Source of the DNA: Mermis nigrescens
Taxonomy: Eukaryota > Nematoda > Enoplea > Mermithida > Mermithidae
Direction: 5' to 3'
Length of the DNA: 64,000 nt
Assembly (NCBI GenBank): GCA_036768485.1
Contig: JAVLUZ010000329.1
Span: forward strand, 372,001 to 436,000
Part shown: positions 15,374 through 50,844 of the stretch, piece by piece
Layout of the letters: every line of letters starts with the position of its first letter
How positions within the stretch are numbered: position 1 is the stretch's first letter
Program-made: the position numbers and the translations under genes
Notes under the pieces: model-generated
What the model saw: the letters and a program-made list of their open reading frames with translations, nothing else
The model's database searches: none
Told to the model about the DNA's origin: nothing

Positions 15374-16136
15374 TGTAACTGCGAGAGTTACGGTAGGCGA
15401 ACCTGCCTTAGCAGTTCGCGATAGCCATCACATAGCCAATACTAGTAGCTATCTATGATAGTGCACTGTGGGCTATGCCTTCGGTCTTCCCATTATTTCC
15501 CCATATTTTAAATAATAAAAAACATTTAGATACTTGTCCGGTAGCATAGAGTTAAGTGTATGATAATAGTAATTGTTTCATGCATACCGCTTGTGCAATC
15601 GAGGACTTTCGATCTGAGATAAAAGTGATTCAGTATTACGTTAATTTGATCTTTGTTTAATTTACTGTAATGGTCCTTGAGGCCAGTGTACTTAACGTTG
15701 TAGTTTAGTCTGGCGTTTTTGTTTTTCGTTTGCCAGTCGTACGTTGATATAGTCCGTACGTTTTCGTTTTCTTTCTGCTTGTTGTCCGGCTATAGGCCGT
15801 GAATTCTTCGTCGAATTAAAATATAGAAAACCTACCCAGTGGTTTTTGGTTATACCGAGGGTTAGGTCGGCACATACCCACGTCGAGGACTTCCACCCAT
15901 CTTAGTGGACTGATAGGTAAATTTCGTATGATATTTTATTTTATTTGGAAATCATAATTTATTTCTCAAGCCAAAAATTGATCAAAAATATTATTTAATC
16001 TTTAGGGATGATTGATCAGCATAGAGCTCGTTGTTGTTGTTTTCATTGTTCAGCGTGCTACACATATTAGGAACCAAAAACATTTCGGATCAGGCACTGA
16101 TTGAAAATAAGTTAAATTACAACTTGAGCTTGAGAT

Positions 16137-16150
16137 AGGTCAACTGACCT
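16137..16150. promoter_or_regulatory. Inverted AGGTCA-AC-TGACCT site in the 5' LTR
   Basis: Nuclear-receptor-type half-sites in inverted order with a 2-bp spacer. The identical sequence is in the 3' LTR (29444-29457) and in the ancient LTR relic (6257-6270). The function is inferred from conservation and motif identity. Confidence 0.5.
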
Positions 16151-16358
16151 CCGCGGCAAATTCCGAGACTAGGTAGGTAGCCTTAGGTCTTAGGGCGTAG
16201 CTGCTGAGATCACCCGACAAGAAGCAGCCAGCAATATTAGGGCTGAGGGGATCGAAGCCGTAAGGTCTCTAAGGGTCCAAAGATCGAAAGCCATTCAGAG
16301 CCGCGCGATCGGGGCCAGCACTAAGCGTAGACTTAAGTACCTACGTACCTAGGTAAAT

Positions 16359-16417
16359 CTCGAAGGTAATGTTAGGCCGGTCTGTGTCGCTCTTGTAGAC
16401 GCAGGCCCCTACATTTA
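16359..16417 (+). ncRNA. U5-end hairpin, 5' LTR version
   Basis: GGTCTGTGTC pairs with GACGCAGGCC (two G-U pairs) around a loop containing CTTGTA. Outer pairs AATGT/ACATT and AGG/CCT extend the stem. The matching region of the 3' LTR has different bases but the same fold. It lies immediately before the primer-binding region. Confidence 0.55.
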
Positions 16418-16419
16418 CA

Positions 16420-17008
16420 TTGGACGTTCCCTCCTTTAGGCTGCTAGCTACAGCCGAGCTGATCAATCATCGTAAACTTATTTTTCGATCCAAAAATCAT
16501 CATTTTGGCCATCTAAAAATGTGTAACATTTCGTTCACCTTTGTTGTTGTATCGACCGCGATCGTGGCAGTGCGCAATTTAAGTAAGCGTCCGTGGTAAA
16601 GATTTTGTGTATCGTGGTAAAGCCATCGTTATTTTTCTATTTCCGTCGAACTTTCATCAACGAAGGCAGCTCTCACGCTCGTATATTCATTTTTCTATAA
16701 ACGTCGACCCACAGGCGACGATTTATCATTTTTCTCAACTGACGACGAAATTCCGTCATTTAGGTTCTTACCTACCTGTTTTTCTAACCACGTACATTTT
16801 CTTGCGCTTTAGGCTTAGTCCTACCTGTTTTCGATCATTTCACGTCAGGTATATCTTACTTCACGTAAGGAAGTACTATTTACGTGGAAAAACCTGTTTT
16901 TCGGATCGATAAAGGCCAAATTCGAAACATTTATTTCGGGAAAAATTTCGACGTACTGAAATTTATTTTACCCAAGGTCACATTTTTCGACATTATTGAC
17001 ACCTAAAA
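16420..17008 (+). other. Gypsy leader with possible PBS and splice donors
   Basis: TGGACGTTCCCTCC (16421-16434) begins with TGG one base after the LTR and may be the primer-binding site; I could not match a tRNA. CAG|GTATAT (16848/16849) and CAC|GTAAGG (16864/16865) are candidate donors for splicing to the acceptor at 23731. A 101-codon open frame at 16607-16912 has no recognisable domain and probably arises by chance. Confidence 0.5.
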
Positions 17009-18115
17009 ATGGCAGGAAAAAAGGTTTTGCGGACACCGCCCACTAAATTGAAAAAACCTTCTACGCCACCTACTTCAGCTCGCCAATTACCTACCGCGCC
17101 TCTTGACTCTAATAGCGCGAGTAATTCTGCGAGTAATGACACAATTACGAGAGACGTAACTACTAATGCGAATAATGATAAATTACCCGCGTCACTAAAT
17201 GCCGCGAGTAATACACAGTCAGAAGATGAACTGTCATTAAGTATCATGCGATCTCGCATTAATCAAACTTCGATAACTAGATCGGACCCTAATATCGACA
17301 ATTCATCAAGTCATACAATGATTGATAATACGACTACCATTAACACGGCAAATAACCCTGAAACCAGTTCGGAGCGCGAAAATCCCGATTCTGACGTAGA
17401 AAGTGCTCATAGTCACAGCATAAATGCCGACAGAGAGCGTGCTAATGCTAATGTGACTAATGATCTTATTTTGAAAGCGCTACAAGCTATTCATTTGCAA
17501 TTTTCGGACCTTTCTACACGCGTTAATCAAGATAAAAAGGAAAATGCAGACGAAATGCGTAAACTGCGTCTGGAGCTAAGCACTATGCTTAAACCCCAAC
17601 CAGTTCTGAATCGCATAGAGAATAATTCATCTGAGCGCGTTAACCACTCAATTGATAGCGCAAATTTTTCTGAATTTAATGCGCAAAGTGCGAATCGTGC
17701 GCAAAGTACGCATCGTGCATCTTCACTGTTGTCCACTGGCAACAGCGCATCAAATTCACGCTCACCTTCGGAAACTGTTCCCGAAAATATCACTCAAAGT
17801 TGTACGAATCGCGCGTCTGAGATATCTAATTTGTCACAGAATCCTGTAAACACGGGTTTGCAATCAGTGCAAAACTCGGGTTTTTCGGAAAATATACCTA
17901 CGATTTCGCAGCCGTCGGTACCGATTTCGCAGACGTCGCGATCTCGGCCGTCGCTGTCTTTAAATCGTAATGCGCTTTCTTTCGTACCTAGTTCTTCTAC
18001 TACGAACTCGCAGCAGCAATTGAATCCACCACCGCTGCAGTATTTTCCACCTCAAGGCGAAATTTTACCAAATAATTATGTACCTAATCCGATAAATGTC
18101 GAAATTACCACCTAA
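17009..18115 (+). CDS. ORF1, Ser/Asn/Thr-rich gag-region protein
   Basis: 368 residues starting MAGKKVLRTPPTKLKKPSTPP. The N-terminus is basic and proline-rich. Most of the rest is low-complexity Ser, Asn, Thr and Gln. Residues about 149-195 (NDLILKALQAIHLQFSDLS onward, ending KLRLELSTML) look like a coiled coil that could drive multimerisation. No zinc knuckle or catalytic motif is present. It ends 20 bases inside the start of gag, which lies one frame over. It may be the N-terminal half of a split Gag, expressed by termination-reinitiation or by frameshift. The function is unknown. Confidence 0.7.
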   Translation: MAGKKVLRTPPTKLKKPSTPPTSARQLPTAPLDSNSASNSASNDTITRDVTTNANNDKLPASLNAASNTQSEDELSLSIMRSRINQTSITRSDPNIDNSSSHTMIDNTTTINTANNPETSSERENPDSDVESAHSHSINADRERANANVTNDLILKALQAIHLQFSDLSTRVNQDKKENADEMRKLRLELSTMLKPQPVLNRIENNSSERVNHSIDSANFSEFNAQSANRAQSTHRASSLLSTGNSASNSRSPSETVPENITQSCTNRASEISNLSQNPVNTGLQSVQNSGFSENIPTISQPSVPISQTSRSRPSLSLNRNALSFVPSSSTTNSQQQLNPPPLQYFPPQGEILPNNYVPNPINVEITT

Positions 18116-19622
18116 TAATCCTATTCTGCATTCTTCTAATATCGAAATGCAACCTGTCGAAATAAACTTATCTGGCATTAACAACGAATCTGCACATTTG
18201 CAAAACGAATCTGCGCCTCTCTCTGAATCATCTAGTAGGAGAAGACATGTCAAATTTTCTGACGAAAGCTCATCTAATAGCTATGATCGCCCGCGCAGCC
18301 GTCGCTCGCGTCGCAAAAGTCGATCGCGCAGACGACGTCATCGTCATAGTTCAGGTTCTTCATCTGAAAGCTCGCGTGGTGACTCTCGTCTCGCTGATTC
18401 CTTGAATTGCGGACCATTTTTGCAGCAGATGCAATTTGCAATTGCTAATAAAAAATTTTTTGATGGCGATAAATCGGATATAAAAGCATATTTCGCAGAA
18501 TTCGAATCACTTGCCAATACCTATGATATTGACAAAGCTGATCGTTTAAAATTCGCTACTGGATTTCTTGACCCTTATGTTTTGCGTTTATACCGTTCGT
18601 TACCTGCTGATATACAACAATCGTATTCAAAAACGAAACAAGCGCTAATAACCGAATTTTGTCCAATGGACACCGGTGCGCTCTTTAATCGTTTTTTGTC
18701 ACACAAACAGCAGCCTAACGAATCGGTTAAAGCTTATTATCTCTCGCTTCGCAAAGAGTTAATTAAATCGGATCCCTATCTTGAAGTTGACTCGCCACAT
18801 TTCAATAATTTAATGCGACATCAACTAAAACAAGGTTTATTACCACACATTTCGAAAGAAGCATATCATAAAAAACCTAGAGCATCATTAGCTGAATTCT
18901 TGGATAATGCGCTAAGCGCTGAATTTGCTAACAAAGAATTTGAGGATAAAAAGGCAGTAACGCCTTACGTATCGGTAACAGCTGCTCCAGTAGGCAGCGC
19001 AGTACCTAAAGATACTCCTCGCGCATCTAACCAAAATGATTCAAATCGTTCACGTCATAAAACGTTTCATCGCTCATCGCGTGCTGAGAAACCAGAAAGT
19101 TCTTCTCGTAAATATTGTACCTTTTGCAAGCGCATAGGTCACACTTATGAGGAATGTTTCACGCGTCAAAGGCAAGAAACGGCTAATAATACTAATCAGA
19201 ATACCCAAGCTGATCGAAATAATAATTCTATGGCTCGCAATTGCAGCCAATCGCGTTCTTTTTGCGTCAAAATCGTTCGCCATCGCATTCGAATTCGCAA
19301 AATAGACATCGATCTCAATCACGATATCGTAACCCAAGTCAACATCGTTCATCTAACTATGCGAATAATGATAATCGCTTTGAATCAAAGCAATCACGAT
19401 CGAATTTTTGGCAAAATCGTAATGATTATTACCAAAATTCGCGTGCTAATTATCAAAATTCGCGTTACGATAATCGTTATAATACTCAACCGCGCCAAAA
19501 TACACCTTTTGTGCAATTCCCAAATGAACAGCGTGGGACATACTATAACTCGAATTACCGCAACGACAATAATTTTAATCGCCCGTATGTCACATATACC
19601 GCAGATAACCAGCCCACCATGA
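18096..19622 (+). CDS. gag: Gag: capsid-like domain and CCHC zinc knuckle
   Basis: The ATG overlaps the end of ORF1. Residues about 45-95 are an Arg/Ser-rich tract (RSRRSRRKSRSRRRRHRH). About 104-275 is a retrotransposon Gag core: FFDGDKSDIKAYFAEFES, LPADIQQSYSKTKQALITEF and ESVKAYYLSLRKEL. C341-X2-C344-X4-H349-X4-C354 is a nucleocapsid zinc knuckle for RNA binding. After about 19262 the frame encodes implausible sequence, while the pol frame (-1) carries on with an Arg/Ser/Asn-rich linker, so Gag-Pol probably shifts at the T tract 19259-19263. The unshifted product would run to 19622. Confidence 0.88.
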   Translation: MSKLPPNNPILHSSNIEMQPVEINLSGINNESAHLQNESAPLSESSSRRRHVKFSDESSSNSYDRPRSRRSRRKSRSRRRRHRHSSGSSSESSRGDSRLADSLNCGPFLQQMQFAIANKKFFDGDKSDIKAYFAEFESLANTYDIDKADRLKFATGFLDPYVLRLYRSLPADIQQSYSKTKQALITEFCPMDTGALFNRFLSHKQQPNESVKAYYLSLRKELIKSDPYLEVDSPHFNNLMRHQLKQGLLPHISKEAYHKKPRASLAEFLDNALSAEFANKEFEDKKAVTPYVSVTAAPVGSAVPKDTPRASNQNDSNRSRHKTFHRSSRAEKPESSSRKYCTFCKRIGHTYEECFTRQRQETANNTNQNTQADRNNNSMARNCSQSRSFCVKIVRHRIRIRKIDIDLNHDIVTQVNIVHLTMRIMIIALNQSNHDRIFGKIVMIITKIRVLIIKIRVTIIVIILNRAKIHLLCNSQMNSVGHTITRITATTIILIARMSHIPQITSPP

Positions 19623-22054
19623 ATGTGCCCCCACCGCAGCCAACCCTTACATCTCCTCATGATGTAAACACGGTTACTGCAAAAGGGCCAGAATCTAGCG
19701 CGCGTCCCAATCTATTCGCGTCGCAAGAATTTCTCGAAGAGTACGAACGTTTACAACGTCGTCTCGCAACTTACGAAAAAATTAATCTACCTCCATCTAA
19801 GACGTTAGATCCTAATATTCCTATCGTAAGCCATGCTGGGACTAACTTACCTACCATTCTCGTTAAAGTTCATGGCATTGACGTACCTGCTCTCATAGAT
19901 ACAGGTTCACAGGTCACCATGATGACCACGTCTGCATTCTTACGTCTTGGTTTTAATTTACCACCTAAACAAGTTTCACAAGTCGTACATGGTGTAGGCG
20001 AAATCACCGCTGTCGTTCGCTATAAAGTAAATATGACTTTAACCATTGCAGAACAATCTATTTCTACCTCAGTAGCTATCATTGATCATTTGCCGGAAGA
20101 CATGCTCTTAGGATATGATTTTTGCGAATCCGCACTCATGTGGGTTAATCCTATTGAGCGCTGTGCTTTTATAAACGGCATAAAGATTAATTTACTCTCA
20201 TCTCATGAAAAATTGCAATTTCGTGCGAAACCCAACGCAACCACCTCTGGTGTTGTGTGTGTGCATGTTTCGTTACCTGAGCCTGTTATAATACAACCTA
20301 GGCATGAATTAATTACACCTGGCTATATAAGTCACGGTTCTTGCAATTTTGATTTCGCATTATTCGAACCAAATCCTGATTTTATGGAAAAAACTTCACT
20401 TTTTGTTGCTCCGTCTATAGTCGATGCTTCACAACCTTTAATACCTGTTCGCGTTTGTAATATCTCCAAAGCGCCAATTCGCATCGACTCTGGCGAAATA
20501 ATAGGTTCTTTAACCTCTGATGCCGAAGTCGTGTCACATGTTTCATCTTTTGATGATAGGACACCAGAACTTTTTGCATCAATAAATAAAGCTTTAAACG
20601 GCTCCGCCGTTGATTCTAGACAACAGCAACAAATTCGTGAATTATGCTTAAAATACGACTCAATTTTTGCATTAAAAAACGAACCTCTCGGACGTACCCC
20701 CTTGATGAAACATCATATTGATACAGGGGATAATCCACCCGTTGTTGGAAAAACTTATCGTGTTGAACATTCTAGAAGGGAATCTATGCAGAAAATTATA
20801 AATGAAATGCTTGCGGATAAAATTATTCGACCTACAACTAGCCCATGGGCAAGTCCATTATTTCTCATTGGAAAAAAGGACGGTTCCCTTAGGCCAGTCG
20901 TCGATTATCGACGGTTAAATGACGTCACTAAAACGCAAGTTTATCCTCTTCCACAATTAGACGATTATTTTGACACCTTAGGCAATGCCGCATATTTCAG
21001 CACGTTAGATCTAAAATCTGGATACTGGCAAATTCCACTCGATAATAAATCTCGCGAAAAAACAGCATTTATATGTCCTGTTGGTCATTACGAATTTGAA
21101 GTTTTACCTTTTGGTTTAAAGAATGCGCCCGCAGATTTTCAAAGACTAATGGAGCTCGTGCTTGCAGGTCTAAATTGGAAATCTTGTCTCGTTTACATCG
21201 ATGACATAATTATTTTCTCACGCACTTTCAAAGAACATTTAAAAGATCTTGAGAATGTCTTTATTGCTCTTAAAAAGGCAAACTTACGCGTAAAGCCTGA
21301 TAAATGCCATCTTGCGCATGCAGAGGTAAAATTTCTTGGCCACAGCATAAGTGCAATGGGCATCGCTCCTGATATGTCCAAAGTAGCAGATTTAATCTCG
21401 TTTCCCGTGCCAAAAACCGTTAAATCCTTGCAGAAATTCCTTGGCTTAGTCCAATGGTTTAAGAAATTCGTTAAAGATCTCGCTAAAATCGCTAAACCGC
21501 TATTCCATCTTCTTCGTAAAGATGTCGAATTTTGCTGGAAGGCTGAACACCAAACCGCCTTTGAGCTTCTGAAGAAAGCATTTACATCTCCACCTATTTT
21601 GCAATTACCAAAATTCGATGATGAGCACCAATTTATTTTAACAACTGACGCAAGTAACTATGCGTTAGGTGCTATCTTGACACAAAAACATTTACCATCC
21701 AAAAATCGTTTTATTCTTAGCTACGCTAGTCGCGTGCTAAATTCTGCCAAATGTAACTATGCTACTTCGGAAAAAGAAGCGTTAGCGGTAGTGTGGGCCA
21801 TCAAGCATTATCGACATTATCTTTACGGTAAAAAATTCATTGTCGAAACTGATCATCGAGCGTTAACCTGGCTAGTAAACGTTAAAGACCCATCAAGTCG
21901 TTTACGCCGTTGGGGTCTCAAGTTACAGGAATACGAATATGATATCGTTTATGTTCCTGGTGCATATAACTGCGCAGCTGATCTTCTTTCACGTCATCCC
22001 AAATATGATCACGCAGAACGCAAATACAAAGTCAGAGCGCAAAAATGTCGTTAA
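19241..22054 (+). CDS. pol: Pol: protease, reverse transcriptase, RNase H
   Basis: In frame from about 19262. After an Arg/Asn/Gln-rich linker comes an aspartic protease with ALIDTGSQVTMM (active Asp at residue 220) and LLGYDF. The RT spans about 480-740 with SPWASPLFLIGKKDGSLRP, LDLKSGYWQI, FGLKNAPADFQRLM and YIDD (652-655). RNase H follows with TTDASNYALGA (Asp 803), SEKEALAVVWA and TDHRALTWL (Asp 871). All key residues are present. The frame stops at 22054 just after LLSRHPKYDH, a normal end of RNase H, through a +1 change at an A5 tract (about 22043), after which an acidic linker continues in another frame. Confidence 0.95.
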   Translation: MQPIAFFLRQNRSPSHSNSQNRHRSQSRYRNPSQHRSSNYANNDNRFESKQSRSNFWQNRNDYYQNSRANYQNSRYDNRYNTQPRQNTPFVQFPNEQRGTYYNSNYRNDNNFNRPYVTYTADNQPTMNVPPPQPTLTSPHDVNTVTAKGPESSARPNLFASQEFLEEYERLQRRLATYEKINLPPSKTLDPNIPIVSHAGTNLPTILVKVHGIDVPALIDTGSQVTMMTTSAFLRLGFNLPPKQVSQVVHGVGEITAVVRYKVNMTLTIAEQSISTSVAIIDHLPEDMLLGYDFCESALMWVNPIERCAFINGIKINLLSSHEKLQFRAKPNATTSGVVCVHVSLPEPVIIQPRHELITPGYISHGSCNFDFALFEPNPDFMEKTSLFVAPSIVDASQPLIPVRVCNISKAPIRIDSGEIIGSLTSDAEVVSHVSSFDDRTPELFASINKALNGSAVDSRQQQQIRELCLKYDSIFALKNEPLGRTPLMKHHIDTGDNPPVVGKTYRVEHSRRESMQKIINEMLADKIIRPTTSPWASPLFLIGKKDGSLRPVVDYRRLNDVTKTQVYPLPQLDDYFDTLGNAAYFSTLDLKSGYWQIPLDNKSREKTAFICPVGHYEFEVLPFGLKNAPADFQRLMELVLAGLNWKSCLVYIDDIIIFSRTFKEHLKDLENVFIALKKANLRVKPDKCHLAHAEVKFLGHSISAMGIAPDMSKVADLISFPVPKTVKSLQKFLGLVQWFKKFVKDLAKIAKPLFHLLRKDVEFCWKAEHQTAFELLKKAFTSPPILQLPKFDDEHQFILTTDASNYALGAILTQKHLPSKNRFILSYASRVLNSAKCNYATSEKEALAVVWAIKHYRHYLYGKKFIVETDHRALTWLVNVKDPSSRLRRWGLKLQEYEYDIVYVPGAYNCAADLLSRHPKYDHAERKYKVRAQKCR
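19257..19265 (+). promoter_or_regulatory. Putative gag-pol -1 frameshift site
   Basis: In the gag frame the codons are TCT TTT TGC; T5 covers 19259-19263. A -1 slip lets the tRNA on TTT re-pair perfectly with TTT one base back and enters the pol frame at TTG CGT. The A-site re-pairing would be poor, so this is not a textbook heptamer. A lost T (T6 to T5) or an assembly homopolymer error is an alternative. Confidence 0.45.
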
Positions 22055-22372
22055 CATCGCAAATTTAGAATCTGAAGACTCTGAGTCAGATGATGAATCG
22101 GTTCCCCTGACCGATCGCGCGATAACGCGCCTGATGCACCAATTAATCATCCAAATGCGCATAATAACAATCCTACTGCACAAACCGATCCTATCAATTC
22201 TAAACCACCTACATTTCGTGAACGCTTGTTACTTACCGACGCCAAAAAAGCTGAAATGCTGACACCTGCGCGTTTACTCGCTGAGCAACGTGCAGATGAC
22301 GAATTGCATAAAATTCGCATCGCATTGAATGACTTAACAACGAAAAAATATCGTGACGAATTTTTCTCGTAA
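22055..22372 (+). CDS. pol: Pol linker between RNase H and integrase (frame-broken)
   Basis: The coding pattern continues through two frames. About 22045-22110 (frame of 21939) encodes acidic NIANLESEDSESDDESVP. About 22115-22372, in the original pol frame, encodes an Asn/Pro-rich stretch and then LLLTDAKKAEMLTPARL..., the usual tether before the integrase zinc domain. It ends in TAA at 22370-22372 because the T5 tract 22361-22365 shifts the frame by -1. Whether these breaks are mutations, sequencing errors or recoding is open. Confidence 0.6.
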
Positions 22373-23826
22373 ACGATGTACTTTTTCGTCGTTTCCAACC
22401 TAAGCGTTCACCAACTGTCGTTCATCAAATAGTCATACCCAAATCTTTGCGTCGTTTTATATTAACGGAATTTCATGAGTCTATTTTCGGAGCTCATTTT
22501 TCATCGCGCAAAATCTTGCCCGCCATACAAATGCGTTATTGGTGGCCGCGCATGGAAAATGATGTGATCGCGTGGTGTCGGAATTGTGATGTGTGCTTAC
22601 AACGTAAGGTCGCATTAAATTCCACATCCGTTCCGTTGCAACCAATTGAAGTATCCGCGCCCTTTGAACTCATTGTGTGCGATTGTTTGCATATGCCGCG
22701 ATCCCCCTCCGGAAATGACCAAATTGTAGTTTTTATGGATTATTTTACAAAATACGTGGAAGCTTTTGCTGTTTCTGACATAAAAGCAACAACTATCGCA
22801 AATTTATTATTACGAGAAATTATACCACGTTATGGAGTTCCTAAGAAATTTTTGACAGATCAGGGGTCAAATTTTACATCTACCCTAATTTCGGAAGTTT
22901 GTAAACTATTAAACGTTCAAAAAATATTTACAACCCCATATCACCCCCAGTGTGATGGGTTGGTAGAACGTTATAATCGAACCTTGATTGATGGTTTGTC
23001 TAAGCTGAGTGCGCGTTCCCAGTATGATTGGGAGCAATTTCTACCTTTTGCATTATTTGCATATCGCGCGACTCCGCAATCATCGACTAATATATCTCCT
23101 TTCGAAATGCTTTATGGTCGCGAACCAGCATTTCCGCTTGACACTTTACTCATAAATGACTTTGTGATAAATCCGAATTTACCATCTGTTGCGGAAAAAT
23201 ACGTCATTGATTTAAAGCTGACTTTACAAGACCTGCATGAAATCGCATCTCAAAATTTAACTCAAGCGCGTAAGCAGCAAAAATCGCAATATGACAAGTC
23301 CGTAACGCACACAAACTTTAATATCTCGGATATAGTCTACCTTAATAATACCTCAGTCATTCAACCCAAAATCGGTAAACTATCACCCAAGCGTGTTGGT
23401 CCATACCGAATTATTGACTTACCTACGCCTGAAACTGCGAAAATCGCATATGTCTATAACCCTCTCATCACTCATCTCGTTCACCGAAATAGACTTCTGC
23501 CTGAGCCTAAGCTACCTTATTCTGACTTAATTGTGGAAAAACACGCGTACGTCCCTGGCGATTTTGTGTTGGTAAAATTACCACATCGCCCTCTTGCCCC
23601 GGCAGTAGTCATAAGTTTTGAGGATTTACTGGGCAGGGAACAAAAAGCTAAGGACTGCGCGCCTATACGTTTATTAAATGGCTCTAAAACAGCACATGCC
23701 GTACCATTATCTAATGTTTTTCCTTTTGCAGACCCATGGCTGCACAAGGTACCCCAAGCAAGGAGGCATTGCTGGAGGCAGCTGGTCGCCAATGCAAATT
23801 CGAGGGGCGTGATCCCGCGTCCCTAG
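22357..23826 (+). CDS. pol: Integrase with GPY module and PWWP-like C-terminus
   Basis: Open from 22357; residues here count from the Met at 22447. The HHCC zinc domain uses H10, H17, C47 and C50 with YWWPRMENDV between. The catalytic core has D79, D138 and E174, exactly D,D-35-E, within CDCLHMP, FLTDQGSNF and GLVERYNRTL. VGPY at 317-320 is the GPY/F module. About 369-427 (PGDFVLVKLP, PLAPAVVI, IRLLNGSKTAHAVPLSNVFPF) follows the strand order of a PWWP/Tudor-like reader, with PLAP in place of PWWP. The last ~90 bases overlap the third unit in another frame. Confidence 0.92.
   Translation, partial: RIFLVNDVLFRRFQPKRSPTVVHQIVIPKSLRRFILTEFHESIFGAHFSSRKILPAIQMRYWWPRMENDVIAWCRNCDVCLQRKVALNSTSVPLQPIEVSAPFELIVCDCLHMPRSPSGNDQIVVFMDYFTKYVEAFAVSDIKATTIANLLLREIIPRYGVPKKFLTDQGSNFTSTLISEVCKLLNVQKIFTTPYHPQCDGLVERYNRTLIDGLSKLSARSQYDWEQFLPFALFAYRATPQSSTNISPFEMLYGREPAFPLDTLLINDFVINPNLPSVAEKYVIDLKLTLQDLHEIASQNLTQARKQQKSQYDKSVTHTNFNISDIVYLNNTSVIQPKIGKLSPKRVGPYRIIDLPTPETAKIAYVYNPLITHLVHRNRLLPEPKLPYSDLIVEKHAYVPGDFVLVKLPHRPLAPAVVISFEDLLGREQKAKDCAPIRLLNGSKTAHAVPLSNVFPFADPWLHKVPQARRHCWRQLVANANSRGVIPRP
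23707..23735 (+). promoter_or_regulatory. Predicted 3' splice site feeding the third unit
   Basis: CTAAT (23711-23715) fits an insect branch point. TTTTTCCTTTTGCAG follows and ends at 23731, and ACCC then leads into ATGG at 23736. This is a strong acceptor four bases before a good initiation context, placed inside integrase codons. Candidate donors lie in the leader at 16848 and 16864. Env of errantiviruses is made from a comparably spliced RNA. Confidence 0.6.
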
Positions 23827-24686
23827 ATGAATTTCGTTCGGCTTTGACCAATATGGCGTTGGAGCGGGGGTTGGTTATGCCAGACCCGCTGCCGCAAAAT
23901 GACGATAGTCGCGTTGGCGGTCTAGAGTCACTTACCGCAAAATGGATAAAACATAAAGCAACACATAAAATCACAAATCACAGAAAGCGTATTAACGACC
24001 AACAACTCTGGTGGGAGAACAGACTTGGTAGATCTCCTTTGGTAACCCCTCGTGTACCAAAGAACAGAGTTCTACCCACTGTCATAATCTCCAATGACCA
24101 GAAGTCGTTTGGCGCCATTTTGGCGTTGATCCAGCCATCGAATATGACAAATGGCACGCTATTCTTAGGCTACGACTCTGAATTTGTTAATGACAGAAAA
24201 GGCAGACATTATAAGACCTGGGACTTGCGTTTTCAGCAATTATGTCCCACTTACCAGGACCTCCATGGCCCATTCGTACGCTACGTCCAAGTTGTGAGCG
24301 CGAACGGCCATGTGTTCTGTTGGGACCTGGCGAAGTTCCCGCAACCTCCGTTTGGGCTTCACCAGTTGCTCGAAACGCGTTTACCAAATGTACATATGGT
24401 TTGCTATGACCCTACGCAAGACCGACTTGCGTATTTTCACGTATACGGTCCAACTTTTGAGGAAATTTTGGCAATTCCGGATGCAGAAATTCGCAATAAA
24501 CTGCACTGGAAAGATCCGTTCATTGCTAATTTTATCGATATTCAGCCACTGGCGAGAGAATTTACTCGTTGTTTCCGTATCAAAGCGCAGTCGCACTCGT
24601 TAAAGCGCTTGGCTGAATTCTTTTTGACATGTATATTGACCCTAATGCGCCTGATAATTTTGGACAGGCGTGGAGCTTACCGTTAA
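23736..24686 (+). CDS. Third unit, part 1: DEDDy-type 3'-5' exonuclease domain
   Basis: Starts MAAQGTPSKEALLEAAGRQC. Residues about 140-296 form an RNase D/WRN/EXD-type exonuclease. Exo I is LFLGYDSEF (D147, E149). Exo II is PTQDRLAYF (D229, possibly D225). The conserved strand FIDIQPLAREF (D268) and helix HSLKRLAEFF follow. Exo III lies across a frame change, in the next entry. Such enzymes remove 3' nucleotides from RNA or DNA with two metal ions. The first ~135 residues are basic and hydrophilic with no signal peptide or membrane segment. The real frame leaves this ORF at T5 24621-24625; the last ~22 codons are out of frame. Confidence 0.88.
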   Translation: MAAQGTPSKEALLEAAGRQCKFEGRDPASLDEFRSALTNMALERGLVMPDPLPQNDDSRVGGLESLTAKWIKHKATHKITNHRKRINDQQLWWENRLGRSPLVTPRVPKNRVLPTVIISNDQKSFGAILALIQPSNMTNGTLFLGYDSEFVNDRKGRHYKTWDLRFQQLCPTYQDLHGPFVRYVQVVSANGHVFCWDLAKFPQPPFGLHQLLETRLPNVHMVCYDPTQDRLAYFHVYGPTFEEILAIPDAEIRNKLHWKDPFIANFIDIQPLAREFTRCFRIKAQSHSLKRLAEFFLTCILTLMRLIILDRRGAYR

Positions 24687-27112
24687 CTCGGGACATGCAG
24701 CATTATTTAGCGATGGACGCCCTCATAACTATCGATGTTTTTATATTGATAGAAGGGTGCATGCAAAATAATCGCATTACTGACGATAGAAAGCCTATAT
24801 CGGTTTCGTTTACAGGCAATGAATTGTACATTAAGGCTAGCGGCCCGAAAGCCAGAGTGCGTATACCGTTGTCGACTAGTAAACCACCACAAGGCCAGTC
24901 GACCAGCATGGCTGCTGAAGTCGAAGTTGATTCGAATGGCAAAGAGCTAATCAGAGTTGAGGACTTTTATGGCCCAGCTCCGCAACTGCCAGCAGCCATA
25001 GCTGCAGCCACCACCGTTGCCTCAGTAACGGAAGCGTTGGCTCACACTAATGTTTTTGACAATCCTGACCTACAAGTTCAGGGTTCGCAGGCCGTTGCCG
25101 ACTCAGTTTTGGGTCCGGCTCATGCACCTGATACCGAACCAAAATCTAAACCAACCAGTTCGAGTACACCAGCTTCTGTGTTTTCCTCGCAAACCGATAT
25201 TCCCTACGATTCGCCCATGGTCCATGTAGAACCATCGATCTCCACTGAGGATGACGATTTATCTCCTAAACGCTTAGTGATGGCGTTATCTGACGCCGAG
25301 GCGGAAAGACAAGCTAACTTGTCGCCACCGCGTACAACACGCATGGCATTGGCCAGAAAAGGGGCTGTTACCGTTTCGCAACCGGTTGTCTCACAATCGC
25401 TTGCGGCGGACCAACAAGCACCCTTGGGCATCAGTTCGCTCGCACCTTTACCGACTTCGCAGCCGGGTTGGGTAGAGCGTGACTCTGAGCCCGACATGAT
25501 CATGACTGAGATTATTGGCTTTCCGCCGATACCACAACGCACATTACCCGCACATGAAGTACCGCAAGTAGCGTTGTACACGCAAGTCGCGTCTCATTCC
25601 GCGCCACAAGGCGTGTCGGCACCGGATACTCGTTTTATGGCTCCTATGACCATGACGGGTGTGTCGAGTACTGTGGCGACTATTCAACCACAGGTTACTC
25701 AAAGTCAATCATCAAATATGGAAGTCGCAATACCTGCGCACATTCAAGCCATTCGCGAACGTATGTCCGCGAATGAAAGCGCTAGAGTGCAAAATTGCTC
25801 GCGCTACGTACAGCACTTTTTCACCACAATGGAAAATATGACGCGTGAACCACCATGCACTATCGCGCCAGTCGTCTTGCACGAGTTACGTTCTTATCTG
25901 GGTGAGGTCGAAGGAACGCGTCTGTACAATCAGCTGGTTGAAGCTGCCCAAGTGTACTTCGACCGAGTGTACGCAATACATTTGCAGTACGCGACTTCGA
26001 CTGACTCTCCCTCGCGTCCGTTAGTGTGGTCTACAATTGCACAGCCTTTGGCTGATGCCAATTGTGAGCCCGCACCTCAATTTATTAGTGAATTGAGCGT
26101 GTTTAACCGATTATTTTACCCAGACCAATACTTCGTGCGCATACGGTTCTTTATTACAACCGGAATGATGTTGTACGAGGTTCCACTACAGTATTTGGTG
26201 GTGCATCCGCACCTTGACGCACCGACTGAGGTGATTGATGGCGTTGCACATCAGGTTTGCCCGGAATTATATCCGCACAGGATGTCTCCAGCGCCAGATC
26301 ACCTAGCGCCCATTTTAATATTGACGCGTCAGATGGTCGATATTTTCGATACTTTCCGAGAATTTCAATCATTATATGATTCGGAGTATCGACACATGAC
26401 GATCTTCTCTTCAATAGACGTCATGCGCGCTACAGCGCTTTTGGAATTTTTGGATAGGAAGTTCCACTTCTTTGCGTACGCCTACGGTAATCCAGGAATA
26501 GGCTGGCGCATGGTGGAGCAGTTACGTCGCATGTTGCGCGTAGCGTTCCTTGGTGAATCTTATACACCTTTGCCAAGTGAGGCTTTCCCGGAATTCCCGG
26601 ACTTAACGGCACGAATCAAAAGTCCACATGTTTTACATAACATGATTCGGCAAATTCGGTTAGCAACCGACCCGCCACTTGAAGTTCCGGCTCAATTCGA
26701 TTGTTTCCGAGGTCGTCAAAAATCTGTGTTTTACCTCAAACATCAAATTCAAGGCGAATTAGAGAAAATTCGTAGAGAAAGGCGGCAGGCATCCTCGCAG
26801 GACCCAAGCGGATCCGCAGCAAGCCTTGATATGCCAGAAGTCGATCTTTCTTTGGAGGCACAAATTGAAATGCGTAGAACACGCATGACGATCGAGAAAC
26901 GCGATTGTGAGAATTTGGCAACGGAAATGCCAAGGCGTGCGACGAGATTACGCGCCGCCGGTTCTCTTGCTGAATCTTCAGAAGTTCGTCATATGTCAGA
27001 AGACGAACATAAAGCCAAATTGAATCGATTTTATGACACTAAATCCGAGCACACTTTGCGTCGGTTAAAAAAATTTGGAAAAGCAACGAGTCAGAAGACT
27101 TGTTCAAGCTGA
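24629..27112 (+). CDS. Third unit, part 2: Exo III motif plus long unrecognised region
   Basis: The first residues complete the exonuclease: WSLPLTRDMQHYLAMDAL gives the Y-x3-D signature (Y26, D30) of the DEDDy subclass, preceded by the usual W-S-x-P-L-T. About 95-370 is low-complexity Ser/Pro/Ala/Thr, acidic in places. About 375-710 looks folded (IPAHIQAIRERMSANES, LFYPDQYFVRIRFFI, YAYGNPGIGWRMVEQLRR), rich in aromatic residues, and is not a family I know. A charged, probably coiled-coil end follows (RRERRQASSQ to LRRLKK). No envelope features: no signal peptide, furin-type cleavage site, fusion peptide or membrane anchor. The frame breaks at A7 near 27066-27072. Confidence 0.75.
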   Translation: MYIDPNAPDNFGQAWSLPLTRDMQHYLAMDALITIDVFILIEGCMQNNRITDDRKPISVSFTGNELYIKASGPKARVRIPLSTSKPPQGQSTSMAAEVEVDSNGKELIRVEDFYGPAPQLPAAIAAATTVASVTEALAHTNVFDNPDLQVQGSQAVADSVLGPAHAPDTEPKSKPTSSSTPASVFSSQTDIPYDSPMVHVEPSISTEDDDLSPKRLVMALSDAEAERQANLSPPRTTRMALARKGAVTVSQPVVSQSLAADQQAPLGISSLAPLPTSQPGWVERDSEPDMIMTEIIGFPPIPQRTLPAHEVPQVALYTQVASHSAPQGVSAPDTRFMAPMTMTGVSSTVATIQPQVTQSQSSNMEVAIPAHIQAIRERMSANESARVQNCSRYVQHFFTTMENMTREPPCTIAPVVLHELRSYLGEVEGTRLYNQLVEAAQVYFDRVYAIHLQYATSTDSPSRPLVWSTIAQPLADANCEPAPQFISELSVFNRLFYPDQYFVRIRFFITTGMMLYEVPLQYLVVHPHLDAPTEVIDGVAHQVCPELYPHRMSPAPDHLAPILILTRQMVDIFDTFREFQSLYDSEYRHMTIFSSIDVMRATALLEFLDRKFHFFAYAYGNPGIGWRMVEQLRRMLRVAFLGESYTPLPSEAFPEFPDLTARIKSPHVLHNMIRQIRLATDPPLEVPAQFDCFRGRQKSVFYLKHQIQGELEKIRRERRQASSQDPSGSAASLDMPEVDLSLEAQIEMRRTRMTIEKRDCENLATEMPRRATRLRAAGSLAESSEVRHMSEDEHKAKLNRFYDTKSEHTLRRLKKFGKATSQKTCSS

Positions 27113-27686
27113 AGTTGCAGCTAAATTAAAAGCGCGTTTAGGCCAAAAGGGATTGAGGCGGCAAGAACCGCAGTCATCCCGGCAACGCTATGCTCAAACG
27201 CATCATCGTTCACAATCACAAGCACAACAGCAAACACAAGTAAAACCACATATACAGCAATACACACGACCGCAGACCCAACCGCGGCAACAGCAGCAAT
27301 TCACGGAATCGCGTGAGCGTTCCGAGGCGTATTCGCAGGCTGATGCTGGTCATCTGTTGCGCTCGCAACAGCAGCAGCCTTATGAATATCGCCGTCTGCC
27401 ACAGTCGAACCGCGGAACTCATCGGGGCCGGTCACAATCCCGTCAACGTCAACAATGGGACCAGTCGTATCGCTCACCGTTGGAACAAAGTCAATCAGCC
27501 ACCGGGGTCTATCAGCCACAACCTCGACCCGGTCCACTTTTGCCAAAACCGTGGCCTGTTACGCAACAACAACAGCGTCCACGCAAACCTTCACGTGAAC
27601 AATCTTATGGTTTTACGCCGGAGCAATTATTCACTCCGACGCCACCAATACCGCGTTGTTACGCCGGACGACTACGAGGACGATGA
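27075..27686 (+). CDS. Third unit, part 3: basic helix and Gln/Arg-rich tail
   Basis: Continues the coiled-coil-like helix in a +1 frame (LEKQRVRRLVQAEVAAKLKA), then Gln-, Arg-, Ser- and Pro-rich low complexity with repeated RSQSQ, QPRQQQQ and RGRSQSRQRQQ, a likely nucleic-acid-binding disordered tail. The real frame changes again near 27650, so the last ten codons here are spurious. Confidence 0.6.
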   Translation: MEKQRVRRLVQAEVAAKLKARLGQKGLRRQEPQSSRQRYAQTHHRSQSQAQQQTQVKPHIQQYTRPQTQPRQQQQFTESRERSEAYSQADAGHLLRSQQQQPYEYRRLPQSNRGTHRGRSQSRQRQQWDQSYRSPLEQSQSATGVYQPQPRPGPLLPKPWPVTQQQQRPRKPSREQSYGFTPEQLFTPTPPIPRCYAGRLRGR

Positions 27687-27888
27687 CGATTTTGAGGACG
27701 ACAATCGACCAGTCGATCCACATCGGCGCTTACGCCAACATCTGTACGGGCGTAGGCAATCGCCATACCAGTACCGCGAGCATTCGAATACGCGTCGCGA
27801 ACCGGAATCGGATCAAGAATATTTTCAACGTCAACGACGTCGCGGAAAATTGTATGGCTCGAAGGCCAATTATCAGGATCGCTATTAA
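27650..27888 (+). CDS. Third unit, part 4: acidic patch and C-terminus
   Basis: In the frame open from 27313 but meaningful only from about 27650: VVTPDDYEDDDDFEDDN, then an Arg/Gln-rich end with RRQSPYQYREHSN and a KANYQDRY terminus before TAA. The acidic run followed by basic Tyr-rich sequence continues the composition of part 3, which supports a single original reading unit from 23736 to 27888 (about 1,380 codons). Confidence 0.55.
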
Positions 27889-28670
27889 TTTACAAGTTCG
27901 ACGTACAGAACTTTTTGGAACTCTGCGACGGCGTCAAATTCGACCAGCAGCTTTTCGTCAATTTTTTCGTTTTTCGTCCTGATGTGGATTCCAGGACTTC
28001 GTGTATCGTTTATTTCCTGTGTATTTTTTCTCTTGTCATTTTTTCTCTTGCTGTAAAATTTTTCTTTGACGGTGCTTGTATTTTTCCCCGTTATCTCGCA
28101 TAATTTGCCATTTTTTCTCGTTTTTATTGTTACCTCGTGTTTTAACTCGTCAGTGTCTTTAAATTTTTGCTCAGCATAATCTTGCCTTATCATTCCGTAT
28201 TTTAATTTGTCTTTTGCTCAATTAGCGGTGTTACTATTATGGTACCTTAACTCTTTAACGGACAAGGGGTTAATTTACACCCAATCTAAAAACTTTTTCA
28301 ATTTAAAATTTTTCTCATTACCCGGGGACTGAAGGAGGCTAATGAGACAGTTGATGGACTGTCCAAGACCGGAGTTCATCATTACTCGGGCAACAATATA
28401 GTTATCCCTAGCGCCATTGAGAGTGTTGCTCGAGAGTTTTCCTGAGTGCGAACGAGGTCATGCGTTGACCGTTACCTGTTATCGCTATTTGTTATTTTTT
28501 TCGTTCTTTTTATTTTCGTTTTTCACGTTTGCTCAGGATGAGGCGTTGCGGACGCCAGAGTTGAGGCGTTGCGAACGCCGGAGAGCCGAGTTATAGAGCG
28601 TCGCCGACGCTAGTGTTGATGGTGTACCCCGAAAAAATTCTCCACTTCGTTACTAATTTTTTTCTATACG
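27889..28670 (+). other. Gypsy 3' untranslated region
   Basis: T-rich non-coding stretch (repeated TTTTTCTCTTG-like words). It ends with three successive small hairpins at 28542-28611 and the purine tract. No ORF with a recognisable product. Confidence 0.6.
28542..28611 (+). ncRNA. Three tandem triloop hairpins in the gypsy 3' UTR
   Basis: GGCGTT-GCG-GACGCC (28542-28556), GGCGTT-GCG-AACGCC (28565-28579) and AGCGTC-GCC-GACGCT (28597-28611). Each has a 6-bp stem and 3-nt loop; the third uses different base pairs, which favours conservation of structure. The position, just upstream of the purine tract, suits an RNA export, packaging or 3'-end element. The function is not known. Confidence 0.55.
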
Positions 28671-28678
28671 TGGGGGAG
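28671..28678 (+). other. Polypurine tract
   Basis: TGGGGGAG directly abuts the TG of the 3' LTR, the expected start site for plus-strand DNA synthesis. Confidence 0.8.
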
Positions 28679-29443
28679 TGTAACTGCGAGAGTTACACGG
28701 TAGGCGAACCTGCCTTAGCAGTTCGCGATAGCCATCACATAGCCAATACTAGTAGCTATCTATGATAGTGCACTGTGGGCTATGCCTTCGGTCTTCCCAT
28801 TATTTCCCCAAATTTTCAATAATAAAAAACATCTAGATACTTGTCCGGTAACATAGAGTTAAGTGTATGATAATAGTAATTGTTTCATGCATACCGCTTG
28901 TGCAATCGAGAACATTCGATCTGAGATAAAAGTGATTCAGTATTACGTTAATTTGATCTTTGTTTAATTTACTGTAATGGTCCTTGAGGCCAATGTACTT
29001 AACGTTGTAGTTTAGTCTGGCGTTTTTGTTTTTCGTTTGCCAGTCGTACGTTGATATAGTCCGTACGTTTTCGTTTTCTTTCTGCTTGTTGTCCGGCTAT
29101 AGGCCGTGAATTCTTCGTCGAATTAAAATATAGAAAACCTACCCAGTGGTTTTTGGTTATACCGAGGGTTAGGTCGGCACATACCCACGTCGAGGACTTC
29201 CACCCATCTTAGTGGACTGATAGGTAAATTTCGTATGATATTTTATTTTATTTGGAAATCATAATTTATTTCTCAAGCCAAAAATTGATCAAAAATATTA
29301 TTTAATCTTTAGGGATGATTGATCAGCATAGAGCTCGTTGTTGTTGTTTTCATTGTTCAGCGTGCTACACATATTAGGAACCAAAAACATTTCGGATCAG
29401 GCACTGATTGAAAATAAGTTAAATTACAACTTGAGCTTGAGAT

Positions 29444-29457
29444 AGGTCAACTGACCT
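29444..29457. promoter_or_regulatory. Inverted AGGTCA-AC-TGACCT site in the 3' LTR
   Basis: Identical to the sites at 16137 and 6257; see those entries. Confidence 0.5.
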
Positions 29458-29675
29458 CCGCGGCAAATTCCGAGACTAGGTAGGTAGCCTTAGGTCTTAG
29501 GGCGTAGCTGCTGAGATCACCCGACAAGAAGCAGCCAGCAATATTAGGGCTGAGGGGATCGAAGCCGTAAGGTCTCTAAGGGTCCAAAGATCGAAAGCCA
29601 TTCAGAGCCGCGCGATCGGGGCCAGCACTAAGCGTAGACTTAAGTACCTACGTACCTAGAGTAAATCTCGAAGGC

Positions 29676-30564: not shown

Positions 30565-31194
30565 TAGCAAATGGAGCGCTTCGCTGCCCCATCTGCTAGA
30601 GTGTTTCTAAACAAATAATATCTTAACCAGTAATTAGTATAAAAAATTGAATGACTCTGCAATGGATCGGCGAGCGGTTTGTATATTTTTTATATCTAGC
30701 TGAGCTGCCCGGCGTTGCCCTGGCTGAACTTAGGCCTGATAGCTGTATGGGATTGAGATGTCTCTTGTATTTTTTTATTTTTCGGGACTTTTGATGTTTT
30801 TGGGATATTTCTAAAAAATTGTTGGTAAAAACATATTGTATTTTTTAAATTTTTTTAAACTGTCTTTTGTCAACCATTTCTTTGATTAAATCCATATTTC
30901 TGACGTTATAGAATGGTTCTGAGAATTCTTTATCCTAAATCATATTTTTGATGTTCTGGGATGTTCTGGAAATTATACCATTAGATGGTCTGGGATGTTT
31001 AAAAATTTTGTTTGATCATAACCATATTTTTAACGTTTTGGAATATTAAAAAAAACTTTTTGGTCCAAAACCATACTTTTGATGTTTTTGGAGGTTTAAA
31101 AATTTTTTTGGTCAAAACCATATTTTTGATGTTTTAGGATGTTTAAAGATTTTTTGGTGCAAACCATATTTTCGATGTTTTGGGACACCAATCT

Positions 31195-32317
31195 TACAGC
31201 ACAGGATATGTTATAGCACTGGGTATGGTATATCACGTCCTTTCTTGTAGCATGAGGTATATTTTATCACTTCCTATCTTGTAACACCGGGTATGTTATA
31301 TCACGTCCTATCTTATAGCATGGGGCATGTTATATCACGTCCTATTGTACAGCATGGGGTATGTTACATCACGTCCTATTGTATAGCATTGAGTATGTTG
31401 TATCACGTCCTATCCTATAGCGTCGGGTTCAACTTTGTACAATGTTCAACTTTGCCCTCATTGTAAACAAATGCAAAAAGTTGCATATTAAATTAGCCGC
31501 TAGAAGCAAAAACATTTGGATTTGTATTTTCGAAAGCCGCAAGCTTGCTGCTTTCTTTCGAAAGCCGCATGTTTGCTGCTTTCGATTGCTTCACATTAAA
31601 TTTCACGCGCGCTGGTTTACAAGGTCAAAAATTTAGACTTGGTGCAAGCTCTTTCTCAGTGATTGATCATGTTTATAAGTACCCGTATGTGATTTCCTTT
31701 TAGCCTGTCTCATACATGTTTTATGATGCCAGATCGTATATTTAAAGTAGCGAATATGGAATCGGCGGTCGCAGAAAACCCCAGGGGCCAAATTTTGGAA
31801 GCAATAGTCAATCTGTGCTTCTGTAAAAAGACAAAAACCTAAATTTTACGCTAAGCATAGGGTACCTTTGGGCTCCCGTATCTCAGAAACCAATCCGTGA
31901 ATTTTCTTCAAATTCTACAGTAAGGTCAGTCATAAGATATCCAATAATTGGTCGAAACTTTAAAAAAATTTATCTGCTGCGATTTAAGATATTTGATAAA
32001 ATACACTTGTAAATAAGGTTTTCTTACGGCATCATGGTTCACACCAGTCGATAGCGCATAAAAAGTTAATCTAGGGTGGCTTTAAAATTTTACCCTGCGG
32101 CAATTGCATAAGCGGCTAGAGCTACCAAAATCTTTTACATAAATCCGTAGTTTCCGGGTTTCAGGAGTCCGATCGAGCCATTTTAATCAAAAAATTGTAA
32201 TTAGCGCCCGAGAATACCCATTGAGTGAAAATATAAGTATCACAAAATTATCCAGTAAAAACTTTTTTGCCTCACACACACACACACACACACTTACACA
32301 CAACTCGAAATTAATAT
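31195..32317. repeat. Tandem duplication, unit 1
   Basis: Begins TACAGCACAGGATATG. It contains about six ~34-bp minisatellite units with TATATCACGTCCTAT, then a GCCGCATGTTTGCTGCTTTC duplication, and ends with a (CA)n run and CACAACTCGAAATTAATATTA. It is highly similar to 32318-33466. Confidence 0.8.
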
Positions 32318-50281: not shown

Positions 50282-50844
50282 CCGAAAAACGAAGGCGTCC
50301 TCTCAAAATGCTTTTTACTGGTGTTTGTTAAAGAGCTTGGAGAGAAAACTTTGGCTTGTGTAAAGAGCTAATTTAGCTTGAAATCAGTAACATATTTTCA
50401 TGACAATATTTAGTCAATATTCAAGTGAAAGGCTCAATAGGTGAATTATGACATTCGTATCATGCTGTTTATTATGGCTCTGCAATAACACGTGTTGCGC
50501 TAGCGTGATGAGATGATGTCGGTAGGTACACTTTCTCCTGCTTCAGAATTTGACATATCTGAGCTATCAAAATTTCCGCTCTATCGTTAGGCACTATTGC
50601 ATTTATACGCACAGTCATCTCGCTCATTCTTCTTGCGACGTGTGTCCTAAATTCCTTGGTACTAACCTGTTTGCGTATGTTTGATGCTTTATAGCGCTAA
50701 AAATACCACATATAATTACTGTAGGGCCCCTGAGTCATATTTTTTCAAGAAACATTTTCAGCAATTTCACTTAGCCCGACCCCCTCTGAGTTTTTTGCTG
50801 CCCATGTACGATTGTTGCTTCAGTTTGAGAAATAAATAACACTA

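Follow-up and report, generated by a model that had tools for sequence, protein, structure and literature searches.

A probable DEDDy 3'-5' exonuclease gene downstream of integrase in a multi-copy Ty3/gypsy retrotransposon of Mermis nigrescens

We detected a Ty3/gypsy element of 14.3 kb with a third open reading frame (ORF3) for a DEDDy 3'-5' exonuclease directly 3' of integrase in the genome of the nematode Mermis nigrescens. The element lies in a stretch of 64,000 nucleotides (the window; contig JAVLUZ010000329.1, positions 372,001 to 436,000). The sequence makes it probable that ORF3 encodes a DEDDy exonuclease, belongs to the element and is a working gene, all three together. It shows the identity of the domain, its position, its linkage to the element in multiple copies, the constraint on its catalytic core and the tree splits in common with integrase, whereas we infer splicing, catalysis and substrate. 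A preliminary description of this DNA assigned a DEDDy exonuclease to the env position of a Ty3/gypsy element, as a part of that element. The assignment is supported by a profile match, by invariant residues and by all 73 integrase copies examined, and the element proved to be multi-copy.

Structure and copy number of the element

The features of the window copy are as follows.

15374..16366, + strand: 5' LTR, beginning TGTAAC, ~993 bp, exact 3' end approximate (blastn to the 3' LTR)
17000..19622, + strand: gag region, in two overlapping frames in the window copy (17000-18115 and 18096-19622)
19226..22054, + strand: pol part 1, aspartic protease, reverse transcriptase and RNase H (Pfam PF13650, PF00078, PF17917)
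22357..23826, + strand: pol part 2, integrase (Pfam PF17921, PF00665) with a GPY motif seen by eye
23710..23731, + strand: probable 3' splice acceptor just 5' of the ATG at 23736, with a branch-like TCTAAT, a pyrimidine tract and CAG
23736..24614, + strand: ORF3 N-terminal region and Exo I-Exo II with D147, E149 and D229 (motifs, alignment, profile match)
24617..24760, + strand: Exo III (W-S-x-P-L-T ... Y-L-A-M-D), in another frame in the window copy (motifs, alignment)
24761..27112, + strand: ORF3 tail, a P/S/T/Q-rich linker and then ~300 residues without a recognised fold (composition, Pfam blank)
27069..27686, + strand: basic Q-rich stretch, probable C-terminus of ORF3, in another frame in the window copy (composition)
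28670..28678, + strand: likely polypurine tract, purine-rich and adjoining the start of the 3' LTR (read from the sequence)
28679..29674, + strand: 3' LTR, exact 3' end approximate (blastn to the 5' LTR)

The two LTRs (15374-16366 and 28679-29674) are 99.0% identical over 996 columns (blastn), and the Ty3/gypsy domain order PR-RT-RNase H-IN is present by Pfam. The gag region has a CCHC zinc knuckle, recognised by eye, and a match to PF03732 (E 1.4e-4) just under the cut-off. The integrase C-terminus matches the integrase end of a related element, L072 (BLASTP 6e-12), which ends in a PWWP domain; no Pfam match to PWWP was obtained in the window integrase itself. No Pfam family for a dUTPase between PR and RT was found in 19226-22051 at E 0.1, a search that a diverged domain could escape. 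ARAGORN found no tRNA in the window, and Rfam returned nothing at gathering level.

The motif set and the location of the unit, 3' of integrase and flanked by the LTRs, both agree with the preliminary description. On the other hand, the clean target duplication that it reported was not recovered. With the LTR start set at TGTAAC, ...ACCAAAATCTTC precedes the 5' LTR and ...GAAGGCAAATACACC stands at the end of the 3' LTR, and no 4-6-mer common to these boundaries was seen by eye, the 3' boundary of the LTR being approximate.

The unit is present in many copies, with 124 scored matches listed in the genome, 22 of which have open ORF3 frames of 1388-1390 aa. The integrase copies listed number 93, of which 73 were examined; all 73 carry the ORF3 unit directly downstream, which rules out a one-off insertion, and copies without the unit, by which such an insertion was to be recognised, were not found among them. 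Likewise, integrase lies directly upstream of ORF3 in all 30 loci of a set picked by similarity (L009-L038).

The acceptor TTTTTCCTTTTGCAGACCCATGG is identical in these 30 loci. The pyrimidine tract and CAG are also unchanged in 7 of 11 other loci (L073-L083), with a single T-to-C change in the remaining four; six of the 11 have stops in the ORF3 unit. No clear candidate for a splice donor was found in the leader or gag. The conserved acceptor suggests that splicing probably yields a subgenomic RNA from which ORF3 is translated, in the manner of errantiviral env.

In the window copy, the reading frame is broken between Exo II and Exo III: D147 and E149 are encoded at 24174-24182 and D229 at 24420-24422, and the tyrosine and aspartate of Y-x3-D (24704-24718) lie in a different frame. 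This break is common to 10 of the 30 loci, and the downstream frame is stop-free over 75 codons in all ten. The loci with the break differ by up to 11% in DNA, the closest locus to one of them is an unbroken one, and in L017, which also has it, F replaces the Exo III tyrosine. Frame-broken loci rank first because the query held residues after the break. The shared break may reflect a recurrent indel, an assembly error or slippage. Further downstream, the probable C-terminal stretch has a K+R fraction of 0.19 and a P+S+T+Q fraction of 0.44; the frame 27244-27888, which overlaps it, is likewise open.

Identity of the ORF3 product

The open copy L033 was aligned with six other ORF3s, each 20-23% identical to it (alignment A1, which does not include L017). 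D147, E149, D229, Y324 and D328 are invariant in the seven sequences, i.e., the four acidic residues of Exo I-III and the Y-x3-D motif that mark a DEDDy (PF01612-type) exonuclease are all present. The A1 profile matches the WRN exonuclease (E 6.5e-9) and MUT-7 (E 4.4e-4), and further EXD2 and NrnC (PDB 2fbt, 7jw2, 6k17 and 7mpr for WRN, MUT-7, EXD2 and NrnC), and this significant match rules out chance motifs. By profile these proteins have the same domain as ORF3; to our knowledge, none of the four is part of a mobile element. An open copy alone gave a sub-threshold match to PF01612 (E 0.042), and it is related (BLASTP 2e-8) to an ORF3 family of ~490 aa that matches PF01612 at 3.6e-10. D147, E149 and D229 are also kept in all 30 loci of the similarity-picked set.

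The profile check proposed in the preliminary description therefore succeeded with the relatives added, but not with the window pieces alone, for which no Pfam match was obtained. These pieces had no match in a protein collection at E 0.01, and a further search of the protein collection at E 0.001 gave none either. No match to the first piece was found in the PDB, and no relative was found in viral contigs. A structure model of a lone window piece had a mean pLDDT of 36.9, too low to judge an RNase H-like fold.

Selection and shared ancestry

Purifying selection acts on the exonuclease core, with a pN/pS of ~0.05 against 0.25 in the tail, and the N-terminus and tail of ORF3 vary more than the core. 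In seven open loci, pN/pS is 0.051 over Exo I-II (bootstrap 0.016-0.106), 0.000 over the 50 codons of Exo III and 0.124 over the N-terminal region (bootstrap 0.040-0.272, a range that overlaps that of the core), rising to 0.238 in the linker and 0.253 in the tail, over the part of this region that the fetched loci cover. For the integrase core, the value is 0.010 in 6 of the 7 open loci, and a wrong-frame control over 28 loci gave 1.72 and 3.47. In the 30 loci L009-L038, pN is lowered because they were picked by protein similarity to the ORF3 region itself; a sample ranked by integrase gave 0.078 for the exonuclease, correcting this bias only with n=6, four of which are near-identical.

Three further gypsy lineages in the genome carry related ORF3s, and ORF3 stands beside integrase in all four lineages looked at. 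The integrase and ORF3 trees have four splits in common. The split of the window element, L071 and L072 from the rest has a support of 100/100 in the integrase tree and 85/83 in the ORF3 tree, the latter below the program's starred level, in trees that have no outgroup and long branches for which the program warns of false joining. The related ORF3s and the common splits rule out a capture limited to the window family, and most simply suggest that ORF3 was inherited along with integrase since before the four gypsy lineages of this genome split. In a related lineage (L069, L070) the ORF is retained but the catalytic residues are lost, and some elements can therefore do without catalysis.

Known systems and possible functions

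The preliminary description knew of no LTR family with such a domain; DEDDy ORF3s have, however, been described in the LTR retrotransposons Juno and Vesta of bdelloid rotifers (Rodriguez et al., 2017; PMC5408684). According to that report, these are likewise LTR elements with a separate ORF3 for an RNase D-like DEDDy exonuclease downstream of pol, and spliced messages are the typical source of ORF3 expression in LTR elements. As described there, Juno and Vesta differ in their LTRs (159-551 bp, ~1 kb here), in a dUTPase between PR and RT (no Pfam dUTPase match here) and in the change of DEDD to DEED (DEDD is kept here). The bdelloid DEDDy ORF3 is reported to be missing from the earliest branches and to have been gained on two or more occasions, whereas four splits are common to the integrase and ORF3 trees here. 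Few full-length copies are described in bdelloids, compared with 124 scored matches listed here and an open frame of up to 1390 aa, and the variation of the bdelloid ORF3s sequenced, of env and GDSL types, is given as mostly neutral, unlike the purifying selection on the exonuclease core here. The sister lineage with the tetrad lost also sets the present elements apart from Juno and Vesta as described (PMC5408684). Thus, a DEDDy ORF3 in LTR elements was already known, and what is new here is the clear selection, the retained DEDD, the long LTRs and the ancestry shared with integrase. DEDDy exonuclease ORFs can also be held by the Terminons (Athena Penelope-like elements) of bdelloids, retroelements too, but described as Penelope-type, endonuclease-deficient, telomeric and up to 40 kb long (PMC6431247). 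Dada elements are mobile and have a DEDDy 3'-5' exonuclease with all four catalytic residues kept, but as a domain within the transposase of a DNA transposon, reported from Laccaria bicolor and Ectocarpus siliculosus (PMC3706591).

We propose that the ORF3 product consists of a WRN/MUT-7/RNase D-like DEDDy exonuclease, a long flexible linker and, at the C-terminus, a basic region, and that it is encoded by an old gene of the element that selection has kept. As an accessory factor, it would most likely remove 3'-terminal nucleotides, either from RNA or cDNA of the element itself or from silencing RNAs aimed at the element.

Errantiviruses have an env ORF3 after pol and express it by splicing, and the ORF3 described here is alike in position and likely splicing. 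This position, and the blank Pfam result for the window pieces, would fit a degenerate env, or another structural protein, in which the motifs arose by chance. We nevertheless reject this reading as having a negligible probability, considering the significant profile match to exonucleases, the invariant catalytic residues and the hydropathy: in contrast to env, no membrane-anchor-like segment was found in the window ORF3 pieces, and in their main frames hydropathy is highest for the 19-mer that corresponds to the Exo III helix. A passenger gene captured from the host, with no function for the element, would agree with the mostly neutral intragenomic variation of bdelloid env and GDSL ORF3s (PMC5408684), but it is highly improbable given a pN/pS of 0.05 in the core that is specific to the right frame, the retention of D147, E149 and D229 even if in a similarity-picked set, and the four lineages with tree splits in common.

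Two roles for a working exonuclease remain to be weighed. Trimming or proofreading in the particle, whereby non-templated or mismatched 3' nucleotides of cDNA would be removed, or RNA trimmed, before integration, is a real possibility, if short of an even one. The WRN-like best profile match and the position of ORF3 beside integrase in four lineages point to it, although other gypsy elements manage without an exonuclease, and ORF3 has its own ATG behind the splice acceptor, out of frame with pol, and therefore its entry into the particle is not a given. The DEDDy domain of Dada is thought by its authors to process cleaved 3' ends (PMC3706591), and 3'-end processing of element RNAs has been proposed for the bdelloid ORF3s (PMC5408684). 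An action against host small-RNA silencing, by trimming piRNA or siRNA precursors or targets at the 3' end, or binding them there, is a tentative suggestion. Nibbler, EXD1 and MUT-7 take part in host small-RNA pathways, and MUT-7 and EXD2 are among the A1 profile matches. ORF3 is a separate, probably spliced ORF with an N-terminus and tail more variable than its core, a pattern often seen in host-facing accessory proteins. EXD1 and Maelstrom are described as catalytically inactive derivatives that retain RNA binding, to which the L069/L070 lineage offers a parallel; the best profile match, on the other hand, is WRN, listed among those possibly acting on single-stranded DNA (PMC5408684).

It is unlikely, though worth stating, that this gypsy clade kept the exonuclease since before the lineages split as a dedicated weapon against small-RNA silencing, and that one branch later dropped catalysis and kept nucleic-acid binding only. 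If so, the EXD1/Maelstrom transition of the host pathway would have been repeated inside a transposon.

Whether such ORF3s serve the element was left open for bdelloids (PMC5408684). In Mermis nigrescens, constraint on the catalytic core exceeds that on the linker and tail several-fold, and ORF3 has splits in common with integrase. The product is therefore probably a working enzyme, with a part in retrotransposition or in the conflict with silencing. Since one natural lineage has the catalytic residues and another lacks them, the question of catalysis or binding is directly testable.

Element structure and copy number

In the 524 Mb assembly of 860 contigs that holds the window, the unit coding for the putative exonuclease (ORF3, starting at 23736) lies within the following feature:

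15374-29674, LTR element of about 14.3 kb, a pair of LTRs enclosing Ty3/gypsy genes

The LTRs are 99.0% identical across 996 columns of a nucleotide alignment, and the order of genes between them, based on ORFs and Pfam matches, is gag frames, protease, reverse transcriptase, RNase H, integrase and then ORF3. The target duplication previously described around the element was not seen at the LTR boundaries that could be set. Elsewhere in the window, 34-bp and 47-bp tandem arrays occur at 30984-33450, the former inside a direct duplication of about 1.1 kb, and an open frame of 200 aa (50836-51435) resembles by eye, through a motif, the C-terminal part of a LINE-type reverse transcriptase.

The first ORF3 piece gave 124 scored matches in the assembly, from 1809 first-look candidates, which may include identical copies from segmental or allelic duplicates. 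A window-type integrase, broken in some cases, is located directly 5' of the unit in all 30 window-type loci fetched. A search with the integrase gave 93 listed matches from 4371 candidates, with the unit starting right behind the integrase in 62; of the remaining 31, 11 were fetched, and all contained the unit, interrupted by stops in six of these loci. Thus, the unit is downstream of the integrase in all 73 copies examined among the 93 listed, no copy lacking it was found among these 73, and the proposal of the preliminary description that it belongs to the element, here a multi-copy one, is supported.

Exonuclease identity and ORF3 architecture

The two ORF3 pieces of the window had no Pfam match on their own, the first also had no PDB match, and AlphaFold modelling of a lone window piece gave a structure of too low quality to use (mean pLDDT 36.9). 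L033, an open copy among the window-type loci, had no PDB match and matched PF01612 with an E-value of 0.042 only, at the Exo III end. A search of the assembly with the PF01612 profile retrieved 22 matches, including a family of ORFs of approximately 490 aa, of which one member (L003) scored 3.6e-10 against PF01612 and 2e-8 in BLASTP against L033. The strongest match, L001 (3.1e-12), is probably a host EXOSC10/Rrp6 exon. L033 was aligned with six members of the 490-aa ORF3 family, each sharing 20-23% identity with it. Residues D147, E149 and D229 of Exo I-II and Y324 and D328 of Exo III were invariant in all seven sequences, and the resulting profile matched the solved structures of the WRN exonuclease (6.5e-9), NrnC (1.9e-4), MUT-7 (4.4e-4) and EXD2 (0.0054). 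Given these invariant residues and profile matches, the earlier assignment of the unit as a DEDDy exonuclease stands, as a prediction made through its relatives.

Since 22 of the 124 matches are open over 1388-1390 codons, full-length ORF3 is predicted to comprise about 1380 residues. By composition, the exonuclease is followed by a P/S/T/Q-rich linker, a region of approximately 300 residues with no assigned fold, and a C-terminal part that is basic and rich in Q. The hydropathy peak of the main ORF3 frames is the Exo III helix, and the product is therefore unlike a membrane-anchored envelope protein.

In the window copy, the reading frame is broken between Exo II and Exo III (24614-24686), and an early stop 18 codons past the break is common to 10 of the 30 sampled loci, which rank first partly because the query included residues past the break. 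These ten do not form a tight group, their DNA diverging by up to 11% and the closest broken/unbroken pair being 0.7% apart versus 1.1% for the closest pair inside the broken class. Downstream of the break, the frame is stop-free over 75 codons in all ten (pN/pS 0.128), and in one, L017, F replaces the Exo III tyrosine.

The sequence TTTTTCCTTTTGCAGACCCATGG, identical in all 30 loci, contains the start codon of ORF3 and a probable 3' splice acceptor of good quality. Among the 11 loci picked by integrase, the acceptor tract is unchanged in seven and has a single T-to-C change in four, and acceptor-like sequence was seen by eye ahead of a few of nine related ORF3s (L039, L047). No clear candidate for a splice donor was picked out. 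We infer that the ORF3 message would be spliced.

Selection on ORF3

In seven loci open through the fetched tail, Exo I-II had a pN/pS of 0.051 (bootstrap 0.016-0.106), the 50-codon stretch holding Exo III 0.000, the N-terminus 0.124 (0.040-0.272), the linker 0.238 (0.143-0.358) and the tail 0.253 (0.176-0.378); in six of the seven, the integrase core had 0.010. As a frame control, 28 exonuclease sequences gave 0.053 in the right frame versus 1.72 and 3.47 in the wrong frames. The first 295 ORF3 codons of all 30 loci gave 0.090, and D147, E149 and D229 are retained in all of them; selection of these loci by similarity to the ORF3 region itself tends to lower pN. Within the integrase-picked set, the catalytic trio is D, E, D in seven of 11 loci; the remaining four contain stops, with part of the sequence in a wrong frame. 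When the five loci lacking stops, of which four are near-identical, were combined with the window copy, pN/pS was 0.078 for the exonuclease region and 0.244 for the N-terminus. Overall, these values point clearly to purifying selection on the ORF3 of this family.

Related lineages, known systems and proposed role

The 490-aa ORF3s lie behind gypsy integrases, 31-45% identical to that of the window, in 19 of 30 loci (L039-L068, several of which are fragments of a single site or copies identical to one another), and no integrase was matched in the fetched flanks of the other 11. Two further types were fetched. In the first, represented by L071 and L072, the integrase shares 40 and 44% identity with that of the window and is followed by an ORF3 with the catalytic residues. 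The second comprises L069 and L070, whose ORF3s can be aligned with the others from the N-terminus through Exo I-II (hhalign E 5.1e-15) but have lost these residues (D147 to H, E149 to T/S, D229 to E/N, Y324 and D328 replaced):

L069:1693-3201, ORF3 without catalytic residues, exonuclease region kept
L070:208-1698, ORF3 without catalytic residues, exonuclease region kept

The integrases at L071:2-1270 and L072:1-1152 have C-terminal ends that match Pfam PWWP (PF00855, E 2.7e-14 and 2.7e-11), which may resemble a built-in chromatin reader of the LEDGF type; no report of such a gypsy integrase was apparent by title among the few papers retrieved. The C-terminus of the window integrase aligns with the PWWP-bearing region of that type (BLASTP 6e-12) and has no Pfam PWWP match.

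Integrase and ORF3 trees of 10 sequences each have four splits in common. Neither tree has an outgroup, both contain unresolved forks, and the program cautions that their long branches may be joined falsely. The window, L071 and L072 are separated from the rest with support of 100/100 (integrase) and 85/83 (ORF3), and the other shared splits are {L071, L072}, {L069, L070} and {L047, L050}; the position of {L069, L070} among the seven others differs between the trees. The simplest reading would be a single old acquisition of ORF3, co-inherited with the integrase, with one branch having lost catalysis.

The preliminary description knew of no LTR family with such a domain, which was mistaken because DEDDy ORF3s 3' of pol were described in the Juno and Vesta elements of bdelloid rotifers (Rodriguez et al. 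2017, PMC5408684), with mentions in passages of later texts (PMC6431247, PMC5718144, PMC6338049), and some Dada DNA transposons are also stated to bear DEDDy domains (PMC3706591). Outside bdelloids, no LTR element with a DEDDy domain was apparent among the titles listed from the open-access literature. Unlike Juno and Vesta, the window element has LTRs of about 1 kb, no Pfam match to dUTPase and a retained DEDD set rather than DEED, and its family has many copies, tree splits shared between ORF3 and integrase, and clear purifying selection on ORF3.

As to its substrate, the exonuclease might trim the ends of the element's own RNA or cDNA or, almost as probably, attack silencing RNAs; neither reading is more likely than not, and other or mixed roles take up the remaining probability. 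The reading to which we commit is that ORF3 would be translated from a spliced message as an accessory protein, a functional 3'-5' exonuclease of the element.
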